Positions 6,920 through 17,133 of a stretch of DNA of 64,000 nt are shown in pieces; position 1 is the first letter of the stretch, and each line of letters starts with the position of its first letter. The notes below the pieces were generated by a model. That model was not told the DNA's origin. It made no database searches and saw only the letters and a program-made list of their open reading frames with translations. The stretch spans positions 1 to 64,000 of the forward strand of contig JANQJK010000001.1 in NCBI GenBank assembly GCA_028281665.1. Reading direction: 5' to 3'. The position numbers and the translations under genes were made by a program. This DNA comes from Hyphococcus sp. Its GTDB lineage: Bacteria; Pseudomonadota; Alphaproteobacteria; Caulobacterales; Parvularculaceae.

Positions 6920-6963
6920 TGGAGCGGGTAGCGGGAATCGAACCCGCATATTCAGCTTGGAAG
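6920..6963 (-). repeat. attL: orphan 3' half of tRNA-Gly
   Basis: These 44 bases are identical to 17060-17103 and correspond to the tRNA-Gly segment from the anticodon loop to the CCA end. The sequence on the inner side does not complete a tRNA, so this is the duplicated attachment core, not a gene. Confidence 0.95.
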
Positions 6964-7081
6964 TCTCACACATATTGGAGTGATTTCAGGGTGTTGCGAT
7001 GTAAACGCCGAAAAAATCGAACGAAATAAATCAATAGCTTACTCATCCGGCGTAAACCAATTAAGCGACGGCGCATAGCTT

Positions 7082-7103
7082 GCAAATACGTTTAAACATT
7101 TGC
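7082..7103. promoter_or_regulatory. Inverted repeat GCAAAT-N10-ATTTGC, candidate operator
   Basis: Arms 7082-7087 and 7098-7103 flank a centre containing the palindrome GTTTAAAC. It lies 19 bases upstream of the first gene of the element. A repressor-binding role is inferred from symmetry and position only. Confidence 0.4.
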
Positions 7104-7121
7104 CCAAATGGATTTTGATTT

Positions 7122-7685
7122 ATGAGCAAGACGGCAAAGAAGTTAAAACAGTATCATGAAATGTACCGAATTGGGTTCGATCGATCCCGTCCGCTCGACG
7201 AGCAGTATCATGGGCTGATGGCGGCAAAGGAACTTCGTGCTGAGTTAGACCTATTCCCGACTATATCTGGCTGGGTTGGCGACAAAGGAACGCAACAAGC
7301 TGTCGACCGTATCGAACGCCGTATTTCACGAATCAAAAAAATAAACAATGCGCGTTTCGACGTCACGGCGGCAATTACCCACGAAGGCGCGGCTAAAGGC
7401 AATCGCACAAGTGCCAAAAATCGTGGTTGGTCAAACGCGAAATGCCGTAGCGCAGCCCTAAAGACAATTGAATTGCTCAATGAACGTTATCCAAGATGGC
7501 GGGAAGGCCAAGGAAAGCGATTACCGGGCTCGCATGGCAAAGGTGGAATCGGTGCAATGTATTGCGAAGTTTGCGGGTTGAAAAACTCGGATGAAGCAAG
7601 AAAATACATACATATTGGTGTTCAGCAACTTGCCGATCGCGAAAATATCGATGCCTTGGAGCTTTTGAGAAAACCTTGGTTCTAA
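7122..7685 (+). CDS. Hypothetical protein, first gene of the tRNA-Gly element
   Basis: I do not recognise this 187-residue protein. It is strongly basic and soluble, with no signal peptide or membrane segment. A Lys/Arg-rich helix (residues 60-80, 'RIERRISRIKKINNARFD') is followed by a Gly/Lys-rich stretch ('GQGKRLPGSHGKGGIG') and a lone CxxC ('CEVC') near 150. The basic character would suit nucleic-acid binding, but that is inference. It is codirectional with the following small genes, about 100 bases upstream of the next one. A+T-rich codon use sets it apart from the host genes. Confidence 0.6.
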   Translation: MSKTAKKLKQYHEMYRIGFDRSRPLDEQYHGLMAAKELRAELDLFPTISGWVGDKGTQQAVDRIERRISRIKKINNARFDVTAAITHEGAAKGNRTSAKNRGWSNAKCRSAALKTIELLNERYPRWREGQGKRLPGSHGKGGIGAMYCEVCGLKNSDEARKYIHIGVQQLADRENIDALELLRKPWF

Positions 7686-7747
7686 GATTTGCTTTCCCAG
7701 TCTAAATATCAGCGACTAATTCGTTGCCCATACATCCTTGGGTAATT

Positions 7748-7784
7748 ACTCACGGTTCGGACAACCGAACCAGAAACCGTGAGT
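7748..7784 (+). promoter_or_regulatory. Nested, mutually exclusive hairpins upstream of 7792 gene
   Basis: A perfect 10-bp inverted repeat ACTCACGGTT/AACCGTGAGT (7748-7757, 7775-7784) encloses a second perfect 7-bp hairpin GGTTCGG-ACAA-CCGAACC (7754-7760, 7765-7771). The two share the bases GGTT, so only one can form at a time. The outer repeat ends 7 bases before the ATG. This could be a repressor operator, or an RNA switch that masks or exposes the start region. Confidence 0.5.
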
Positions 7785-7791
7785 ATTGGCT

Positions 7792-8301
7792 ATGACACCT
7801 ATCGAACAGAAAGACCTTCAGCGAGACGTTGAAGGCGCTCATAAACTGCTCCAAAACGCATTTGGCCGAAAGCTCAGTGATCGTGAAGTTGCTGAGCGAT
7901 TTACTCGACTTGAACGTCGCCTATGCCGCACCACGCTTAGCAGGGTCGAAACCGGCGTTTCGTGGTCACTAATTGATTCAAGGTGTCTTCGTGCTGTGCA
8001 GCGAAGCGGCCACCACTATGCTGCACTACTTGCGGCAATTGCAGGAATAGATCTGTCGGACCACAAGTCGGAAATTGATTTCATAGCACGTGACGACGAC
8101 AGGTTAGCCGATAAAATTCGAAGCGTCCGGATAGAATTTGCTCTCTGGAACAGAACGCAAAACCCCAACGCCGATGGAATTGATGTCGATTCGATTTGTA
8201 TTTCGTATGCCGCTGCCAGTATTCGGGCCCGGATCGAACTTAACCTACGAAATGGCGAAGAACCTCTAGGCCATTTCGAGTGCACAGATCGACTCCATTA
8301 A
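7792..8301 (+). CDS. Hypothetical protein
   Basis: The ATG at 7792 is preferred over an in-frame TTG two codons upstream. The roughly 169-residue product is soluble and not recognised. The first half has a helix-rich region with 'FGRKLSDREVAERFTRLERRLCRTTLSRVETG', which is reminiscent of a helix-turn-helix regulator's start, but I see no clean motif. The second half contains 'ALLAAIAGIDLS' and acidic stretches. The palindrome directly upstream would suit an autoregulated gene. Codon use is A+T-rich like the rest of the element. Confidence 0.55.
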   Translation: MTPIEQKDLQRDVEGAHKLLQNAFGRKLSDREVAERFTRLERRLCRTTLSRVETGVSWSLIDSRCLRAVQRSGHHYAALLAAIAGIDLSDHKSEIDFIARDDDRLADKIRSVRIEFALWNRTQNPNADGIDVDSICISYAAASIRARIELNLRNGEEPLGHFECTDRLH

Positions 8302-8437
8302 CGCCACTCACGTAGCGAACAGTTTTGAAGAAGCCCGCACAAATACTGTTTAAATGCGCACCGCAAAAACGATCGGTTATTCATTCATACCAGCTAAACA
8401 AACGAACCATCGTATAGAAACATAAACGGTAATCACA

Positions 8438-8986
8438 ATGAGCGAGTCGAATGCGATAGTTAACCGGCGTGGCAAATGGAGCTTGAAAGGCGTTCCGCAC
8501 AAGGGGTGGGAATGCGTTGATTGTGAAGACTTGGGCGAACCAGCCCAAACGTGTGAAATGTGTGAATCAACAGAGATTCGATATGTTCACGTAATGAGAC
8601 ATCCCGATTTCGAGACTGAACTACGCGTAGGATGCGTTTGTGCTGAGCACCTTTCCGAAGGATATGTTGGAAAGGAAAATGAACGCAGACTACGGAACTA
8701 TGCGAAGCGTCGGTCGCGTTTTCTAAATCGAAAGTGGAAGACTTCGAGAAGCGGTAATCCCAAGATTGAATTGAATGATTATCCCATTACAATTTTTGAA
8801 AAGGTATGCGGTTGGAAGTATGTGATTACGGTCGGGTTCTTTAAACCTTGGGCACCAGACGAGTCTCCAGAATCAATCTTCAGCGATCGCACTTTCAAAA
8901 CCAAGGACGATGCCAAACTTGCAGCGTTTGATCATGTAATGAGATTAGGACCGAGATATCAGAACCATACGTCCAAGACTCAATAA
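8438..8986 (+). CDS. Hypothetical zinc-ribbon-like protein
   Basis: This 182-residue protein has three closely spaced cysteine pairs: 'CVDC' near 26, 'CEMC' near 38, and 'CVCAEH' near 65 (a Cys-x-Cys plus His). The pattern suggests a structural zinc site. A basic patch follows ('RRLRNYAKRRSRFLNRKWK', near 85-105), then a beta-rich tail with 'GWKYVITVGFF'. I cannot name a family. Small zinc-ribbon proteins of this kind are common in phages and plasmids, often as nucleic-acid-binding factors. The gene ends 12 bases before the helicase gene and probably shares its transcript. Confidence 0.6.
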   Translation: MSESNAIVNRRGKWSLKGVPHKGWECVDCEDLGEPAQTCEMCESTEIRYVHVMRHPDFETELRVGCVCAEHLSEGYVGKENERRLRNYAKRRSRFLNRKWKTSRSGNPKIELNDYPITIFEKVCGWKYVITVGFFKPWAPDESPESIFSDRTFKTKDDAKLAAFDHVMRLGPRYQNHTSKTQ

Positions 8987-8998
8987 TCTCGCAGTTAT

Positions 8999-10429
8999 AT
9001 GACCAAACCCGACATACGACTGGTCCCGATCAGCGCTGAACAGTTCATGGCGGTGCGGCGGAAGATCGAATCGATCGCTCCGGAGCAACCGCGGGCTATC
9101 GTCGACGACTACACACCTGACGAAGTCTGCATCGAACTGATCCAGACCGGTGCGGCGTATCACGACCCGTCCACCCGTCTCGCCTGGAGGGGCTACACGG
9201 CTGATCAGATCCGAGCTTTTTTCGATGCGTCGGTCGATCGGGGGAGTAAGCGATGGAACGAGCGGTATCGTGAAATCGATGCAGCGGTCGCTTCGGCGTG
9301 GAAGAAACACACCGCTCGCGCCAACAAATTCTTCGCTGAGCCCATTACGTCCCAAAGCCTGCCCAACACAGCGCCACCGCGGCACGTCACGTTCGATACG
9401 ATCTCTGCAGCTTCATTTTACGGACAGCCTATCCCGCGCCAGCCCTGGCTCATCGACGGCATGCTACCAGCCGGCCAACCGTCGCTATTGAGCGGAGACG
9501 GCGGGCTTGGGAAGTCTTACCTGGCCCTTCAATTGTCGGTCAGCGTTGTAGCTACGGGAATGTGGCTATCTCGCAGTGTCGAACGCGGGTCAGTGCTGTA
9601 CGTCTCGTGTGAAGACGAAACCGCCGAGATCCACCGCCGATTGGAAAAAATCAGCAAGCATGCGGGAGTGACAGTGAATGATCTCAGCGGCCTCCATATC
9701 GCTCCAATGGCTGACCGTGATGCCCTGTTAGCGTCAACGACCCGTGCGGGGCTACAGATGACGCCACTATTCGCGGCGCTCAGTGAACGCGTTGCGGCCT
9801 CACGACCCACGCTCGTCGTACTCGACAGCCTCGCAGATGTTTACGGCGGCAATGAGATCGATAGAGCGCAGGTGCGGTGGTTCATCGGTCAGTTGCGGTC
9901 ACTGTGTCATACGACGGGAGCGACTATCGTCATTCTATCTCACCCATCGCTTAGCGGCATGGCGTCTGGTTCGGGTTTGTCTGGATCGACCCATTGGAAC
10001 AATTCGGTTCGTTCGCGATTGTACCTGACGCGGCCGGATAGCGGGAACAATGACGAACGGGTTTTAGAAGTTAAGAAGAACAACCGCGGTGAGACGGGTC
10101 GTCAGATCGAGCTGGAGTGGAGGAATGGTGTGTTCGTCGCACTCGACGGAGGCGACGCTAGACGTTTCGTAGAGGCGGATATAGATGACTTGTTCATGAC
10201 CTTACTCAAGCGCTTCACCGAGCAAGGTCGCTACGTCAACGCCAGCGGCGGGACGACATATGCTCCCTCGGTATTCGAAAAAGAGCCGGAAGCAAAAGCA
10301 CGGCGGATCAAGAAAAGGCAGTTTTCGGAAGCTATGTCTCGACTGTTCGGTGCGGGACGGATCGCCGTGGGAACACGCAAATCGGGCGGTCACGAACGGC
10401 AATTCATTGAGATTACTGGGGACAGTTAG
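8999..10429 (+). CDS. RepA-like hexameric helicase / AAA ATPase
   Basis: This 476-residue protein has a RecA-fold ATPase domain (about residues 140-345) of the RepA/AAA_25 type. Walker A is 'GDGGLGKS' at 166-173, 'YVSCEDE' lies near 201-207 after strand 2, Walker B is 'LVVLDSLAD' around 272-280, and 'ILSHPS' is the sensor strand. The N-terminal 130 residues form a separate helical region, and the C-terminal 80 are basic with a winged-helix-like pattern. Family members unwind origins of mobilisable plasmids and occur in phage satellites. Here it is the only replication gene of the element. The ribosome-binding site is weak, and a small upstream gene ends 12 bases before, so translational coupling is possible. 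Confidence 0.85.
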   Translation: MTKPDIRLVPISAEQFMAVRRKIESIAPEQPRAIVDDYTPDEVCIELIQTGAAYHDPSTRLAWRGYTADQIRAFFDASVDRGSKRWNERYREIDAAVASAWKKHTARANKFFAEPITSQSLPNTAPPRHVTFDTISAASFYGQPIPRQPWLIDGMLPAGQPSLLSGDGGLGKSYLALQLSVSVVATGMWLSRSVERGSVLYVSCEDETAEIHRRLEKISKHAGVTVNDLSGLHIAPMADRDALLASTTRAGLQMTPLFAALSERVAASRPTLVVLDSLADVYGGNEIDRAQVRWFIGQLRSLCHTTGATIVILSHPSLSGMASGSGLSGSTHWNNSVRSRLYLTRPDSGNNDERVLEVKKNNRGETGRQIELEWRNGVFVALDGGDARRFVEADIDDLFMTLLKRFTEQGRYVNASGGTTYAPSVFEKEPEAKARRIKKRQFSEAMSRLFGAGRIAVGTRKSGGHERQFIEITGDS

Positions 10430-10603
10430 TCTCGCGCGCGACCCTTACACTCCCCCGCGCTCCCCTCGGTAAGTCATTGATTTTTCTACGTCGCCCCTTC
10501 GCGCGCGCACTCCCCATACCCCTATACGCTCCGCGTCGCCTATGGCGGCAACCGCGGGCGTGTAAATGGAAATTCTCAACGTAACGCCAAGCACGGGTAT
10601 GTT
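10430..10603. other. G/C-tract-rich intergenic region after the helicase gene
   Basis: On the minus strand this 174-base gap carries repeated G-runs: GGGG at least four times plus a GGGGG, between 10436 and 10526, mixed with alternating CG stretches (CGCGCGCG). 'ACTCCCC' occurs twice on the plus strand. A gap of this type beside a replication gene could be an origin or a structured DNA region. I see no gene and no clear iteron set. Confidence 0.35.
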
Positions 10604-11824
10604 GTGCACGTTTTCGGTGATTCGGAAAAGCTACTCATGTTCGAGAAAATTACATTACGGCGGAGCGAAAACGGAGTCCCGTTTAGCATCGGGCATTTAG
10701 CCGAGGCCATGCTTTTTCACCAAAATGTACATGTTTTACTAGATCGGTGGAGCACTATTGCGCTTGCAAAGTCGCTCGGATCAGACCTTCTCCTTTCAAT
10801 ACTGGAGCGGCCGGAAGTAACTGCAACCTTCACGGAACAAATACTCGCTACCCACACCAAAACGGTCAACGGAATAAGTGTATATGACTGGGGGGCAATT
10901 CAGTTCGCTGGAGACCAAGATAGGGGAGTCTTGAAAAAGCAGGCTAGGATAACCGACATCTTTTTAAAGGCAGGCCTCCCTAAAGGCGAAGCAAAAAAAG
11001 CGAGCAGACGCTTTCGCGAGTTGACAAAAACTCGATCACTAACGTCAAACTACTATGCGCCTGGTGGTATTCCCGAAGCAGCGCGCGAGGAAGCCACCGA
11101 TATGGCATATTTCTCACACGCGCTCGCCACCAGTTTAGCGAATGATATTAAGAGGCCGGAACTAGCAAAAGAATTTAAGTTTGAAATAACACGCATTGAT
11201 GGCGGTTTTTTCGTTGTCGATAACGTAAACTGGGAACAAGTAAATGAGGAAAGAAAAAAGATATTACCAAATGTCGATGACATTGGCTGCGCACACGTAC
11301 TTTCGTCATTTCAGAACGCCGTTGCTGATCTACACATAGCATCACACTACGGCGGCGAATATGTGACTGACTCAATTTCATCTCAGCTAACGCGACTCAA
11401 ATATTCAAAATTGCTAAAAAGAATTGGGCGAGATACCAATTCAGTATCCGAATTCCAAGACGCGGTGCTAGATAATGCCGCGGCGGTTCGCGAATGCATA
11501 AATTCGGGCGAAAAGACGTTTGCAGAGTTTTTAAGAGTAATTGACCGTCGCGACGGGAAAAAGTTTAAGGAGTTTTGGGCTGGCGTGAACTCCGATGAAA
11601 ACGTTCTGCGAGCGTACTTTGAAGAAAGCTCGCGACGGGGCTGGATCGAGAATATACCAAGCAAAACAATTCGTTTCGCCTTTTGCACCACGATTGGCGC
11701 TGTTTCGCTTCCGGTAGGAATTGCCCTTTCGGCAAGCGATTCGTTTCTGGTGGAAAAGTTAACGAGAGGGTGGCGGCCACATCATTTCGTCGAGCGACAC
11801 TTAAAACCATTCGCTGAGTCATAA
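10604..11824 (+). CDS. Uncharacterised 406-aa protein, first gene of a two-gene accessory cassette
   Basis: Translation may start at GTG 10604 or ATG 10637 (residue 12). I do not recognise a named domain. The N-terminal 120 residues alternate helices and strands around 'SIGHLAEAMLFHQNVHVLLDR' and 'LAKSLGSDLLLSILERPEV', which recalls a widespread uncharacterised group. The middle is helical and charged. Near the C-terminus is one hydrophobic stretch ('FCTTIGAVSLPVGIALSAS', about 365-385), then a basic aromatic tail ('RGWRPHHFVERHLKPF'). The gene is A+T-rich compared with the helicase. The next gene starts 8 bases after its stop, so the two are almost certainly co-transcribed. Function unknown; a defence or host-interaction role is only a guess from location. 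Confidence 0.75.
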   Translation: MHVFGDSEKLLMFEKITLRRSENGVPFSIGHLAEAMLFHQNVHVLLDRWSTIALAKSLGSDLLLSILERPEVTATFTEQILATHTKTVNGISVYDWGAIQFAGDQDRGVLKKQARITDIFLKAGLPKGEAKKASRRFRELTKTRSLTSNYYAPGGIPEAAREEATDMAYFSHALATSLANDIKRPELAKEFKFEITRIDGGFFVVDNVNWEQVNEERKKILPNVDDIGCAHVLSSFQNAVADLHIASHYGGEYVTDSISSQLTRLKYSKLLKRIGRDTNSVSEFQDAVLDNAAAVRECINSGEKTFAEFLRVIDRRDGKKFKEFWAGVNSDENVLRAYFEESSRRGWIENIPSKTIRFAFCTTIGAVSLPVGIALSASDSFLVEKLTRGWRPHHFVERHLKPFAES

Positions 11825-11832
11825 GAAACAAG

Positions 11833-13488
11833 ATGAGCTTTGTCGGTATCACTGTTGGGAATGCGGTCGCTGCGCTAGCTTTTACATTTGCAATTCAACA
11901 GTTCTTGCGGCCAATTCATCTATTTCGTTTGCGCTCACAAGGGCTTCCAATAAATGTCTTCTATATAGCTATCTTTATCGCAGCGGGTTTTGTGTTTGCA
12001 GGAAACTTTGTTCGAAGTTTTGAGATTTTACCGTCATCGAACCACCTTTTCGCTTCGATTCTTGAGTATGTTGGCGCCGCTCTCTTTATTGTTTCCTATC
12101 TAGGCGTAGCCTTCATCGCAACAATAAGACCGCGATTTTCGCGCCGAAACGCGATTCCCTTCACTCAAGCAGCATTTTCGCTAATGTCAAAAGCGAAGGA
12201 AGAAGATTATGTACGGTTTTTTCATGACATAGTTCACAACATCACGGAGATATTTGAACTCGCTAAATTCAACGAACAGTACCGTTTTGCAGGGATCGGC
12301 AGAGAGCGACCCAGCGCTTTTTTTGATTTTATTCACAGGCACACTATCGAGCGGTCAGCCTATGCTGGTGATCTGCTGTCTATGTTATCGGATAGTAGGT
12401 TTTGTAAGGCAATCATTACGCACGATTCAACGGCAGTCGTCCAACTACTTGCAAAAATATCGCACGGCAGGCTGCATAGTTCTAAAGGCCAACGCATGAT
12501 TCAGGAGCTTGCCCGTCAATCAATTCTTCTCGATTCATCCATGCTTGAACGGGAAGTCGGCTACCACGGATTTAGTCACATTGGGCTATTTTTAGAGTCT
12601 ATGTTTGGCGATAGCTTCATTGTTAGAAGTTACAAACCACTAAACAAGATTAGCGCGTTCTATGATGTCGATATTTCGCACCGATTCGTGGAACGTCTAT
12701 CCGCGGCAGTTCAACAGGTCTGGAAAACAGGGGCGGGAGAAATTTGGCACCCTCAATCCGTTTATGATGTGGCACGATTGCTGGATTCATTGTCATCCAC
12801 CATTCGTAGTCTAGAAGAGAAAGATACTACGCAATGGCGCTTATCGGCGCCAATTCCCCGTATACTTCAAACAATTGTTGAGGCTTCCAACAAGGAGATT
12901 TTGGAATTAACTACCGAGGAAAGGCGTTCGCTATATAAGCCTGATGAGGAAACCAGCGCTCACGAACACATTGCTTCGCTAACTGCCGAAATCATCTTCG
13001 ATTATTTTTGCAACATATCCAATGGGTTTTTGGGGTTTGAAGACAAGCAATGGGTAGGAGCGCTTGATGTATTTGGAGAAGTCTTTCCTTCTGGAGATAC
13101 TCAGCCCGCGGGCCTCGACCCCATTCAACAACATCTTGCACTACGAATTATCGGAAAAGTACGCGATAATATGATTGGTTACTATCCAGCGATAACCAGA
13201 TTGTTGCTGGCAGTCATCGGCCCTTACGGCTCGCGAAACGGCAAAAGTAATAGTGCATTTCAACTGTTAGAAGATGCTTTCTACTTTGAACTACGTCGGT
13301 TTTCCGCGCTAGCAATTGAATCCCCTGAAAAGGTTTCGGATTATTTGCCTCCTAACGTTCGGTTTCAAAAGGAACAGAGTGTTTTGGTGCATCGCTATGC
13401 GTTCAATAGTGGCATACGCGAAACGAATTTGAATAAATTAAATCTTGGCGGCGTCGACTTTTACGATAAAAGCCGATTTGTGTCATAG
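11833..13488 (+). CDS. Uncharacterised 551-aa membrane protein, second gene of the cassette
   Basis: The N-terminus has three predicted membrane segments (about residues 5-25, 40-60 and 72-97, e.g. 'FYIAIFIAAGFVFAGNF'). A basic stop-transfer ('RPRFSRRN') follows, then about 440 cytoplasmic residues, mostly helical. I see no catalytic motif: no P-loop, HD, nuclease or protease signature. Conspicuous segments are 'FFHDIVHNITEIFELAKFNEQ' and a conserved-looking C-terminal region ending 'LNLGGVDFYDKSRF'. It is coupled to the upstream 406-aa gene with an 8-base gap. A membrane-anchored large helical protein paired with a soluble partner in an integrative element resembles the layout of many abortive-infection modules, but nothing in the sequence proves that. 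Confidence 0.75.
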   Translation: MSFVGITVGNAVAALAFTFAIQQFLRPIHLFRLRSQGLPINVFYIAIFIAAGFVFAGNFVRSFEILPSSNHLFASILEYVGAALFIVSYLGVAFIATIRPRFSRRNAIPFTQAAFSLMSKAKEEDYVRFFHDIVHNITEIFELAKFNEQYRFAGIGRERPSAFFDFIHRHTIERSAYAGDLLSMLSDSRFCKAIITHDSTAVVQLLAKISHGRLHSSKGQRMIQELARQSILLDSSMLEREVGYHGFSHIGLFLESMFGDSFIVRSYKPLNKISAFYDVDISHRFVERLSAAVQQVWKTGAGEIWHPQSVYDVARLLDSLSSTIRSLEEKDTTQWRLSAPIPRILQTIVEASNKEILELTTEERRSLYKPDEETSAHEHIASLTAEIIFDYFCNISNGFLGFEDKQWVGALDVFGEVFPSGDTQPAGLDPIQQHLALRIIGKVRDNMIGYYPAITRLLLAVIGPYGSRNGKSNSAFQLLEDAFYFELRRFSALAIESPEKVSDYLPPNVRFQKEQSVLVHRYAFNSGIRETNLNKLNLGGVDFYDKSRFVS

Positions 13489-13740
13489 GCATTGAATGCC
13501 GTTATATCAGTTATCCAAGTAACTTATGGTGGTGGGGCTGCTCAAAAGTTCAAATCCGTCCAGCCCAAACCGGCTGCCAAGTGAAAATTTTTCGCGCGCA
13601 GGTTGTGAGAACAAAAAAGGAACGTCAGTATCGCTTTTAAGATTTGCTAAGTAAATCTGATTTTCCTTTTATTTTCAATACACTAGAGTTGACGCCGTAG
13701 CCTTTTTCCGTAGAGTTCACTCGTCGCCTTTATCGGTTTC

Positions 13741-13757
13741 GCCGCGTCGGTGACCGG
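13741..13757 (+). repeat. 17-bp direct repeat GCCGCGTCGGTGACCGG, copy 1
   Basis: Identical to 13890-13906, 149 bases downstream. A weaker relative 'CGCGTCCGTGACCG' lies at about 13856-13869 between them. The repeats are confined to the G+C-rich patch upstream of the capsid gene. Confidence 0.6.
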
Positions 13758-13889
13758 CATCCGGTATCGATAAGGCGCAAGGTCGGACGGTCTGATCACC
13801 CGCCCGACCGACGCCGCGACCGCAGCGCTCGCGTAGAGCGCCCCAGCGCCGCCGTCGCGTCCGTGACCGACGATGCAGGTGTTTGGAGG

Positions 13890-13906
13890 GCCGCGTCGGT
13901 GACCGG
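13890..13906 (+). repeat. 17-bp direct repeat GCCGCGTCGGTGACCGG, copy 2
   Basis: Perfect copy of 13741-13757. It ends 57 bases before the capsid start codon. Confidence 0.6.
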
Positions 13907-13963
13907 TTTTCACGTAACGGCTTGCGACTGTCGCAGGCCTTGAAAGCTAAAGGTCTAAAAACC

Positions 13964-15205
13964 ATGAAATACCAATCTGAACTCGTGTCCACGGGGCGCG
14001 TTCCCCGTGTGCTTGCTCATTACGACAGAAACGAAGTTGCCGAGGCGACACGTCTAATTCACGAAATCAACAATGCATTTAGCGATTTTCGCTCGCGAAA
14101 CGATGCGAAGATTTCTGAACTGCAAGAGAACCAGGATGAATTGAATCGTCGCTTTGCAGCGGGCCCAGTATCGTCTGACAATGACGTTACTTTGCCTGTT
14201 CGTAGGGACGGAAGGCCGCGCCTGAGTCAATCCGCTGCCGACAACTTCCTTGGGTTACTCCAAGGCGATCCGCAGATGGCAATGACGGTTGGCTCGGATC
14301 CTGACGGCGGGTTCTCTGTTGAGCGTGAACTTGATAATGAAGTCCTTCGGGTGATCCGTAATTCCAGCGCCATGCGCCGCTTGGCATTCAACGCCAACTT
14401 AAGCATGGGCTTCGGATCATGGAAAAAACTTGTGACGACACAAGGCGGCGCGAGCGGTTGGGCTTCCGAGTCTGACACACGCGGACAGACCGACACGGCC
14501 CTATTCGGAGCGGTCGAGGTGTTCCCGTCAGAACTGTTCGTCAATGCGGAAGTGTCAAACTACCTATTGGATGACGCCGGTTTTAGCATCGAGCAGTTCC
14601 TGCAAACAGACGTTGCTGATGAATTCAGCGCAACAGAGGGGGCTGCGTTTGCAAATGGCAATGGATCGAATAAGCCGCTTGGCCTATTTCAACATCCAAC
14701 GTCGACTGACGATGACGATGCCCGAGAATTCGGAACGCTCGAATATGTTCCAACTGGCATAGCCGGAGCATTTTCCGGTTCCAGCGCTTCGCCGTCGTCT
14801 TCGCCCTATGATGTGTTGGTCGACCTGATCTCCAGGTTTCGGGTCGGCTATCTTGCAAACGCCACCTGGCTAATGAGCCCCCAAACAGCCGGAACTTTGC
14901 GCAAAGTGAAGGATCAGGACGGTCGGTTCATCTGGCAGGACTCATTGATCGCTGGACAGCCATCTATGTTACTCGGTTATCCGGTGGAAATGGACGAAAA
15001 CGCCCCTGCTATCGCTGCCGATTCGCTGTCGATTGCATTTGGCGATTTCAGCCGAGGCTACGTGATCGTCGACCGGCCGGGCATGCAGCTTGTTCGTGAC
15101 CCGTACACGAAGAAGGGCTTCACGCGGTTTTACTTCACTCGTCGCGTTGGCGGTCGCGTCCTAGATTCGCGTGCCATAAAGTTCATTAAATTCAGCAACT
15201 CCTAA
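13964..15205 (+). CDS. HK97-family phage major capsid protein
   Basis: The ATG at 13964 follows AAAGG by 10 bases. The 413-residue product has the family architecture. Residues about 15-60 form a charged helical scaffold (delta) segment ('EVAEATRLIHEINNAF', 'DAKISELQENQDELNRR'). The mature capsid fold starts near residue 100, with the usual 'DPDGGFSVERELDNEVLRVIR', then 'GASGWASESDTR', 'FPSELFVNAEVSNYLLDD', 'GAAFANGNGSNKPLGL', 'TWLMSPQTAGTLRKVKDQDGRFIW', and 'GDFSRGYVIVDRPG' to the end. Such proteins form the icosahedral shell. Prohead protease, portal and terminase, normally adjacent, are absent, so shell formation, if any, would need a helper phage. A strong terminator follows. Confidence 0.95.
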   Translation: MKYQSELVSTGRVPRVLAHYDRNEVAEATRLIHEINNAFSDFRSRNDAKISELQENQDELNRRFAAGPVSSDNDVTLPVRRDGRPRLSQSAADNFLGLLQGDPQMAMTVGSDPDGGFSVERELDNEVLRVIRNSSAMRRLAFNANLSMGFGSWKKLVTTQGGASGWASESDTRGQTDTALFGAVEVFPSELFVNAEVSNYLLDDAGFSIEQFLQTDVADEFSATEGAAFANGNGSNKPLGLFQHPTSTDDDDAREFGTLEYVPTGIAGAFSGSSASPSSSPYDVLVDLISRFRVGYLANATWLMSPQTAGTLRKVKDQDGRFIWQDSLIAGQPSMLLGYPVEMDENAPAIAADSLSIAFGDFSRGYVIVDRPGMQLVRDPYTKKGFTRFYFTRRVGGRVLDSRAIKFIKFSNS

Positions 15206-15221
15206 CGTCCGGCTGAACTTG

Positions 15222-15260
15222 GCCCCGCCTCTTCGTTTCCTAGGAGGCGGGGCTTCTTTC
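15222..15260 (+). terminator. Rho-independent terminator after the capsid gene
   Basis: A perfect 10-bp G+C-rich stem (GCCCCGCCTC/GAGGCGGGGC, 15222-15231 and 15244-15253) with a 12-base loop is followed by TTCTTTC. It stands 17 bases after the capsid stop and separates that gene from the integration genes. Confidence 0.85.
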
Positions 15261-15270
15261 AAACAGCAAA

Positions 15271-15492
15271 ATGGCTGATACCGAGCATCATAAAAGCAAA
15301 CGTCGCCGCTATCCGACACAAGCAGCGATTGATCGGGTTATTCGGGCTGCTCGCAAGGCGGGAATTTTCGTAAATGGCATCGAAGTTTCGCCAGATGGCG
15401 TCATTCGCGTTATTGACAGGACGGAATCGCCGCAGGACGATTTTGAGCGATGGCAACGATCGAAGGCATTCACTTCGTCCGCCGACGTCTAG
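15271..15492 (+). CDS. Small basic protein overlapping the integrase gene
   Basis: The 73-residue protein begins with a Lys/Arg-rich stretch ('KSKRRRYPTQAAIDRVIRAARKAG'), followed by two short strands ('VSPDGVIRVID') and an acidic linker. This pattern, 'ptqaaI.raiRAArkaG...v...Dg.irv', is one I associate with small genes set just before integrases in alphaproteobacterial islands. Its last 43 bases overlap the integrase start in another frame, so the two are translationally linked. It might be a directionality factor or a DNA-binding regulator; the function is not established. Confidence 0.75.
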   Translation: MADTEHHKSKRRRYPTQAAIDRVIRAARKAGIFVNGIEVSPDGVIRVIDRTESPQDDFERWQRSKAFTSSADV

Positions 15493-16493
15493 CGTCGGGC
15501 GCTGTTCGTTGGCACGTATATGCGTGGCGGGGTGGTCCTAAGGTAATGACCGCTGACGGCTTGGCGAAACCGTCTCTTACGCCAGAAGCCCTCACCGCTA
15601 TTGTCAAAGCACATGAGAACGCAACAGAGCCGCGACGCGATACTTTCGATGGTCTCGTTGTCGCATATCTCGGCAGTGCTGAGTTTAGTCGCCTTGCCGA
15701 AACTACACGCCGTCAGTGGCGAACCTGGGCGGACCGGGCGCGAACTGAGTTCGGTCACGCACCGCTGAAACTGTTTTCGGACCCAAGAATGCGGGGGGCC
15801 ATTCTTGAATGGCGAGACAAGTGGGCCAACTCACCGCGATCGGCTGATTATGCCATGCAGGTTCTGTCGCGAGTTCTTTCATGGGGGCTGCAACGCGGTT
15901 GGGTCATGCATAACCCGGCTGCGGGAATGCCCACTCTTTATCGTGCAGACCGTTCCGACATCATCTGGGAAGACCACGAAATCGATGCGGTGGCCGCCAA
16001 GATGCACCCACATGCGGCGCGCGCGTTCAGATTGGCCGCATGGACTGGGCTACCGAGATCGGATCTCGTGTCGCTGCGATGGGACGACGTTGGCGATCTT
16101 TATATCAGCGGACGGCGCGGAAAAACGAAAGTGGAACGTTGCATTCCGATCTTTGATGAGACGCGAGAATTACTGGCCGGCTTTCCAAAATGTGCCGTCA
16201 CAGTGGTGACTAATTACCGTGGCCGTCCATTTTCAGCGCGAGGGTTTTCAGCGTCATTTGAGAAGGCCAAGGCCGCGGCTGGGATTAGCGGAAAAACCCT
16301 TCACGACCTTCGCGGTACGTTCGCGACACGGCTTATGCGCAAAGGGTTTGAAGACCGGGTGATCGACGAAATCCTTGCGTGGGAAACAGGCCGGTCCGTT
16401 CGCATTCGACGCAAGTACATTACCCGCAAAGCTGTGGTAATTTCCGCAATTGAACGGATGCGCAATCGAAAATCTACTGACCCTGACCGATAA
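15450..16493 (+). CDS. int: Tyrosine recombinase/integrase of the tRNA-Gly element
   Basis: This 347-residue site-specific recombinase has an N-terminal arm-binding region (about 1-60), a SAM-like core-binding domain (about 65-165) and a catalytic domain. Likely active-site residues are Arg203 ('TGLPRSDLVSLRW'), Lys near 225-227 ('GRRGKTK'), His285 and Arg288 ('LHDLRGTFATRL'), Trp311 in the third basic/aromatic position ('ILAWETGRS') and the nucleophile Tyr323 ('RRKYI'). All expected positions are filled, so it should be active. Its target is the 3' part of tRNA-Gly(TCC), judged from the 44-bp duplications. It overlaps the small upstream gene, and its 3' end overlaps the convergent membrane gene by 20 bases. 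Confidence 0.95.
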   Translation: MATIEGIHFVRRRLASGAVRWHVYAWRGGPKVMTADGLAKPSLTPEALTAIVKAHENATEPRRDTFDGLVVAYLGSAEFSRLAETTRRQWRTWADRARTEFGHAPLKLFSDPRMRGAILEWRDKWANSPRSADYAMQVLSRVLSWGLQRGWVMHNPAAGMPTLYRADRSDIIWEDHEIDAVAAKMHPHAARAFRLAAWTGLPRSDLVSLRWDDVGDLYISGRRGKTKVERCIPIFDETRELLAGFPKCAVTVVTNYRGRPFSARGFSASFEKAKAAAGISGKTLHDLRGTFATRLMRKGFEDRVIDEILAWETGRSVRIRRKYITRKAVVISAIERMRNRKSTDPDR

Positions 16494-16935
16494 AGATACC
16501 TAAAGTGAAGAATAATGCGGAAAAAAGAAAGCTAAAGATGACGGCCTTAACGCCTTCACGTTTTGCGCCAGCGTGCACAACATCTGCAATTGCTCCCAAT
16601 TCTTCGTCGCTTAAGTCTTTCAACGCTTCAATCTTTTCTTTTTCCTTTTGGAGGCGATCTAACCGTTTAGTGCGCTTGCTGATCTCTGTATCCAGTTCGC
16701 TTACAAGAAGATTTGCCTCGCGGAGCGCCGCTGATAGTCGATCCACGCGAGATTGGAAATCCAACCCAGACGAACTGCGAGCACGCGAAATTCTTAGTTG
16801 AAAAAACGCAGTTAGAAATGTCGCAAAAAGTGTAATGAGAAAAAGTAAAGGGTCGCGCGTTAGAATCTCCAACGCGTAGCCGAATGTTTGCAGCAGATCC
16901 TGAAACCAATTCGACAAACTATCTGAAATCGCCAT
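16474..16935 (-). CDS. Small membrane protein: TM, coiled coil, TM
   Basis: The 153-residue protein has a hydrophobic segment near residues 29-46 ('PLLFLITLFATFLTAFF'), a long charged helix likely to be a coiled coil (about 55-110; 'SKRTKRLDRLQKEKEKIEAL'), then a second hydrophobic segment at the C-terminus ('VIFSFLFSALFFTLGIFIG'). I do not recognise a family. It is the only minus-strand gene of the element, lies between the integrase and the attachment site, and overlaps the integrase gene end to end by 20 bases. Genes in this position are often expressed from the integrated state, for example immunity or exclusion functions; that is inference. Confidence 0.7.
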   Translation of the reverse strand: MAISDSLSNWFQDLLQTFGYALEILTRDPLLFLITLFATFLTAFFQLRISRARSSSGLDFQSRVDRLSAALREANLLVSELDTEISKRTKRLDRLQKEKEKIEALKDLSDEELGAIADVVHAGAKREGVKAVIFSFLFSALFFTLGIFIGQGQ

Positions 16936-17002
16936 TTTTTGCCCCTCACTTCTCGCGAAAAATTACCGTGCGAATGGCATTACTGCAACAAAGTGGGAAC
17001 TC

Positions 17003-17023
17003 CGATGTAAACCGCCTGTAAAC
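17003..17023 (+). repeat. Arm-type repeats (TGTAAAC) near attR
   Basis: TGTAAAC occurs at 17006-17012 and 17017-17023. The 10-mer CGATGTAAAC at 17003-17012 recurs at 6997-7006, just inside attL. Matching motifs inside both ends fit integrase arm sites. Confidence 0.5.
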
Positions 17024-17059
17024 GGTCCCAACGTGGCACAACTAACAGATTGAAATCAT

Positions 17060-17103
17060 TGGAGCGGGTAGCGGGAATCGAACCCGCATATTCAGCTTGG
17101 AAG
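17060..17103 (-). repeat. attR: 44-bp core within tRNA-Gly
   Basis: Identical to 6920-6963. Reading with the tRNA, it runs from the anticodon loop to the CCA end. Confidence 0.95.
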
Positions 17104-17133
17104 GCTGCTGCACTACCATTGTGCTATACCCGC
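17060..17133 (-). tRNA. tRNA-Gly (anticodon TCC), with encoded CCA
   Basis: Read on the minus strand the gene begins GCGGGTATAG, has an anticodon loop TTCCAAG (TCC) and a T-arm GCGGGTTCGATTCCCGC, and ends with discriminator T and CCA. All stems pair. The 3' 44 bases are the attachment core of the element to its left, which restores a complete tRNA on integration. Confidence 0.97.

Follow-up and report, generated by a model that had tools for sequence, protein, structure and literature searches.

A mobile, usually single-gene protein family with a candidate anti-phage role, carried as cargo by a predicted capsid-bearing satellite of Hyphococcus

We analyzed two adjoining genes in a 64,000-nucleotide stretch of Hyphococcus sp. 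DNA (contig JANQJK010000001.1, positions 1 to 64,000; hereafter the window), which a preliminary description had proposed as a two-gene module and a candidate for undescribed anti-phage cargo. Sequence comparison indicates that the product of the first gene, P1, belongs to an undescribed, mobile, and usually single-gene family. The candidate anti-phage function of gene 1 is supported by this mobile distribution and by a slot shared with a DUF262-HEPN defense-type pair. That part of the proposal therefore survives for gene 1, while a conserved two-gene system is not supported by the neighborhoods compared. The reading we favor, and consider probable, is that P1 serves as a mobile, self-sufficient single-gene phage-exclusion factor.

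Results

Two Low-GC Genes on One Strand

Both open reading frames were found as first described, on the plus strand and 8 bases apart: gene 1 at 10604-11824 (GTG start, 406 codons) and gene 2, encoding P2, at 11833-13488 (ATG start, 551 aa). Their lengths lie far beyond chance (~2e-10 for gene 1 and ~3e-14 for gene 2 with shuffled composition). The 406-residue frame from GTG 10604 does exist, but since the relatives of P1 begin with MF, homologue alignments place the start probably at ATG 10637, which gives a 395-aa protein (10637-11824, plus strand). The GC content of gene 1 (46.8%) and gene 2 (44.6%) is low and foreign-looking against 57.5% in the neighboring AAA_25 ATPase gene and about 57-63% in host genes. 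The pair is thus A+T-rich relative to the ATPase gene, as had been noted, but not peculiar in this: three small genes in the left part of the carrier element have 45-50% GC and a 153-aa gene at its right has ~45%, so that low GC is a trait of much of the element and not of the pair alone. The earlier view that neither protein falls into a nameable family also stands, as searches of Pfam, PHROGs, PADLOC, NCBIfam, and PDB sequences gave no convincing match to either, and PADLOC-DB 2.0.0 (2023) returned 0 families for P1, P2, and 13 aligned members of the P1 family.

The Carrier Element

The pair was said to sit between the replication and capsid genes of an integrative element, and this was borne out. 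The element spans 10.1 kb (6920-17106) and is bounded by a 47-bp direct repeat (98%), the left copy of which (6920-6966) reproduces the 3' part of tRNA-Gly, while the right copy (17060-17106) lies inside an intact tRNA-Gly(tcc) gene (17060-17133, minus strand). Between the repeats are three small unknown genes, an AAA_25/RepA-like replication ATPase that flanks the cargo upstream (8999-10429, plus strand; Pfam AAA_25, E=7e-40; PHROG primase/helicase), P1, P2, a lone HK97-type major capsid protein that flanks it downstream (13883-15205, plus strand, with TTG as the listed start; Pfam Phage_capsid, E=6e-67; NCBIfam major_cap_HK97, E=1e-84), a tyrosine integrase (15450-16493, plus strand; Pfam Phage_integrase, E=4e-18), and a 153-aa membrane protein (16474-16935, minus strand) whose gene overlaps the end of the integrase gene. 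The last of these is hydrophobic at both ends with a coiled middle, and its gene is as low in GC as the cargo genes. No terminase, portal, or protease was recognized among the nine gene-sized open reading frames between the repeats. This genome encodes a second HK97 capsid (G000:C3:221659-222561) that shares 42% identity with the capsid protein of the element. Many relatives carry one copy at ~40% identity, and these copies may belong to gene-transfer agents.

Two loci were informative about the nature of this element. A sister element of 8.5 kb (L047:6554-15127), found in a different genus of this bacterial family and bounded by perfect 52-bp tRNA-His repeats, encodes a lone capsid protein about 65-68% identical to the one in the window. 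Its integrase and cargo differ from those in the window, and both P1 and P2 are absent from it. The second locus (L062:6497-15537) carries a related ATPase, HNH, terminase, capsid, protease, portal, and then an integrase adjoining tRNA-Arg (several of these gene names were assigned by eye), and the position of P1-P2 in the window corresponds to that of HNH-terminase there. From the comparison with these two loci, the carrier is best read as a predicted reduced capsid-bearing satellite, in which the P1-P2 interval would be replaceable cargo. The L062 locus itself resembles an alphaproteobacterial capsid-forming satellite or a small prophage. Upstream of the capsid gene of the sister element (L047:10248-10425), a 43-nt repeat occurs three times, with copies 74-98% alike and spaced 63 and 72 nt from start to start; these may represent iterons or a short array of CRISPR-like type.

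Distribution of the P1 Family

We found about 16 distinct relatives of P1 (17-54% identity); they come from Nitrospirota and from four proteobacterial classes (Alpha-, Beta-, Gamma-, and Zetaproteobacteria). Among them, the copy in a genome of the same genus is 54% identical, that of Escherichia coli UTAK-6 (WP_047090168.1) 29%, that on a Buttiauxella plasmid 28%, and that of a Hyphomonadaceae MAG about 20%; to these, a profile search added relatives in Nitrospirota, Mariprofundus, Nitrosomonas, Kangiella, Pseudomonadales, Alteromonas, and Vibrio; one further genome (G099) holds a very distant relative. A scan of viral contigs (IMG/VR) yielded six more, all on contigs of P2-like prophages. In the FastTree topology, the copies from P2-like prophages group with that of the Buttiauxella plasmid, and the window P1 with that of Marinicaulis. 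Across several classes, two phyla, and low identities, the relatives have no constant partner or neighbor; they stand alone in variable places, such as the S-V slot of P2-like prophages, a phage-like plasmid, and islands. Literature searches with accessions of P1 homologues, or for orf30 with P2-like phages, returned nothing useful. A kinship with phycobilisome linkers was rejected as a compositional or local match, the best hit (E=4e-7) being partial, all-helical, and confined to 60-70 residues.

In E. coli UTAK-6 and the six IMG/VR contigs, a lone P1 relative lies between gpV and gpS, on the strand opposite to the late genes. The prophage region flanking this slot was matched in 51 E. coli genomes, one of which carries a P1 relative. 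Of the remaining genomes, the slot was read in five: two strains hold a DUF262+HEPN pair, which in one of them is accompanied by an inserted IS element, and three hold unrelated proteins of 309, 328, and 543 aa. In phage P2 it is occupied by orf30. The DUF262 protein matches PADLOC NsnA (E=7e-80) and PD-T4-2_A (E=1e-42), and PD-T4-2 defends its native strain against T4 (PMC9519451). Across the loci compared (L050-L053 and L016), the contents of the gpV-gpS interval vary: orf30, a member of the P1 family, HEPN+DUF262, or one of three unrelated proteins; between P1 and orf30 or the other occupants tested, there was no sequence relation. The S-V slot looks like an additional defense-type hotspot of P2-like prophages, distinct from the gpA-gpQ hotspot (Rousset 2022, PMC9122126). 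A second hotspot has been described within which fun is counted (Vassallo 2022, PMC9519451). In phage P2, fun(Z) follows gene G, a position other than the S-V slot. We considered whether P1 might be a relative of Fun(Z) and rejected this, because the P1 relative occupies the S-V position of orf30, not that of fun, and because tblastn of the E. coli P1 relative against phage records gave no match in phage P2.

Elsewhere, the company kept by the family is mixed. One relative lies near type I HsdR and SoFic (L022), another near a GmrSD/NsnA-like gene (L020), and a third near pyocin-S DNase and HEPN/nucleotidyltransferase genes (L024); other relatives adjoin nrdB, groES/groEL, an ABC-F gene, or the lexA/trp region (neighbors named by eye). 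Since several of the latter are solitary beside housekeeping genes, the link of the P1 family to defense genes appears partial. The preliminary description had reasoned that its proposal would fail if homologues only ever occurred singly and next to housekeeping genes; the single habit was indeed found, but not a uniform housekeeping context. An empty-site comparison on the nrdB side found the neighboring gene not syntenic in the genome compared (G012). In Mariprofundus (L019:7953-11175), the neighbors of the P1 copy, identified by eye, are a transposase and a ComM gene that looks truncated, which suggests an island inserted in comM.

Predicted Structure and Conserved Residues of P1

An AlphaFold2 model of P1 built from ten sequences (pTM 0.75, mean pLDDT 74) confidently predicts an N-terminal alpha/beta domain, with pLDDT of 80-96 at residues about 30-230 and low values at 323-362 and over the last 14 residues. 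In the model, a beta-alpha-beta arrangement that includes a beta hairpin precedes the helices. The fold search that had been proposed gave no significant match for P1: Foldseek against PDB and BFVD returned nothing at E<=0.001. Comparison of the N-terminal domain with cyclodipeptide synthase, class I Tyr-tRNA synthetase, and TIR folds gave at best a VIA Z of 5.1 (97-163 residues, rmsd 3.5-4.5), which is below the meaningful level for such models. Rows for the respiratory syncytial virus nucleoprotein and the cyclodipeptide synthase fold were set aside, with TM by query length of 0.11-0.20.

Near-invariant in the family are M1-F2, G19, E23, Q29, H32, G143-G144, Y238, R262, and E297 and, in the C-terminal part, Y327, R346, G361, S365, D368, and G378-W379-x-P381-xx-F384. 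In agreement with the preliminary description, these residues make no familiar catalytic set. Conservation, hydropathy, and low pLDDT together mark a weakly hydrophobic C-terminal helix pair (11654-11764, plus strand; residues about 340-376), after which conservation defines the GWxPxxF motif (residues 378-384). The hydrophobic stretch noted at the C terminus of P1 is thus conserved across the family, but it is weak, with a Kyte-Doolittle value of about 1.0 in the window protein and 0.9-1.7 in relatives, mostly below the transmembrane threshold.

Gene 2 and Its Relation to Gene 1

The three N-terminal membrane helices ascribed to P2 were confirmed at residues 3-21, 38-56, and 80-98 (Kyte-Doolittle 1.95-2.26). 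The remaining about 450 aa are predicted to be mostly helical, with an AlphaFold2 model from the single sequence too poor to use (mean pLDDT 42). No relative of P2 was detectable in about 780 distinct genomes (an estimate from overlapping sets of relatives, class, and phylum), plasmids, phages, viral contigs, and genome contigs; the gene may evolve fast or be rare. Several candidate matches were dismissed: PHROG_25374 (E=0.006), a profile that, followed in 200 genomes, was found only in the window; the designed protein THR5 in PDB (E=6e-5), with no stretch significant by itself; and phmmer matches in L006, L033, and L034, which are taken as noise because inspection by eye suggests that the proteins are an AraC-type regulator, a kinase-like protein, and GlmU.

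No P2 relative lies beside any P1 relative in the neighborhoods examined, and the pair was seen in no other genome searched, so that the idea of a two-gene module with co-occurring homologues was not upheld. Most likely, P2 is cargo in its own right, a membrane-anchored protein whose gene was acquired recently; it may instead be a lineage-specific partner of P1.

Discussion

We regard as established the reality of both genes, the boundaries of the element, the P1 family with its single-gene habit, and its sharing of a slot with defense-type genes. The anti-phage activity of P1 and its mode of action are what we infer from them. According to the reading we favor, a small satellite-like element that integrates in tRNA-Gly uses this interval as its cargo slot, and P1 would be spread by prophages, plasmids, and islands as a self-sufficient accessory protein, guarding the host cell from competing phages as a superinfection or abortive exclusion factor. 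Its N-terminal alpha/beta domain may sense or act on an infection-related target and, judging from the architecture, the C-terminal helix pair and GWxPxxF tail may dock on or insert into the membrane and so stop infection.

Other roles for these genes have to be weighed against this one. Prophage morons can also serve host fitness or virulence, and not all are defensive; P1 could accordingly be a lysogenic-conversion moron acting in host physiology, stress, or a toxin-like manner, in keeping with the several chromosomal copies that adjoin housekeeping genes. The slot shared with the NsnA/PD-T4-2-like pair and the defense neighbors around several P1 copies make such a role unlikely. Service to the element itself, through control of replication or packaging or interference with a helper phage, would fit two genes that lie between a replication ATPase and a capsid gene, on the same strand and at the HNH-terminase position of L062. 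It is nonetheless quite improbable, given that P1 relatives turn up on a phage-like plasmid, in P2-like phages, and in chromosomal islands that do not have the genes of this element, and that P1 and P2 are both missing from the sister element, whose capsid is 65% identical.

P1 and P2 might also form a two-component system born in this lineage, in which P1 would be a soluble sensor that recruits P2 as membrane effector. Their 8-base spacing on one strand, similar composition, and complementary soluble and membrane architecture favor this, as do unrelated small membrane or helical genes near other P1 relatives (133 aa in L018, 306 aa in L022, and 342 aa in L023). However, P2 relatives are missing next to every P1 relative as well as from the roughly 780 genomes, and P1 is the sole occupant of its slot in P2-like prophages, which leaves such a system unlikely. 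A related version, which combines a new dispersed single-protein anti-phage family, including the previously unseen alpha/beta domain and membrane-acting C terminus of P1, with the acquisition of P2 as a dedicated membrane effector in this satellite, seems to us rather improbable.

With about 16 homologues, a module of unknown function becomes a testable family and, since one homologue resides in a P2-like prophage of E. coli, P1 function is directly testable in laboratory strains. The contents of the S-V slot (the 309-, 328-, and 543-aa proteins and DUF262-HEPN) are worth screening as defense-type genes, and the lone-capsid satellites of Alphaproteobacteria are flagged as carriers.

Among known systems, the N-terminal domain of P1 is weakly similar to cyclodipeptide synthase, TyrRS, and TIR folds, a likeness that falls short of a Foldseek match. 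P1 relatives occupy the same slot as the DUF262-HEPN pair (NsnA/PD-T4-2_A) in sibling prophages, but P1 has neither a GmrSD_N nor a HEPN domain. The carrier shares with capsid-forming satellites (cf-PICI-like) an integrase at a tRNA gene, tRNA attachment repeats, its own replication gene (the ATPase), and its own HK97 capsid gene, and differs from them in that the capsid gene is alone, with terminase, portal, and protease unrecognized. Compared with the moron genes of P2-like phages (orf30 and the old/tin and fun(Z) hotspots), the P1 relatives are single genes that sit in the S-V slot of orf30, on the opposite strand.
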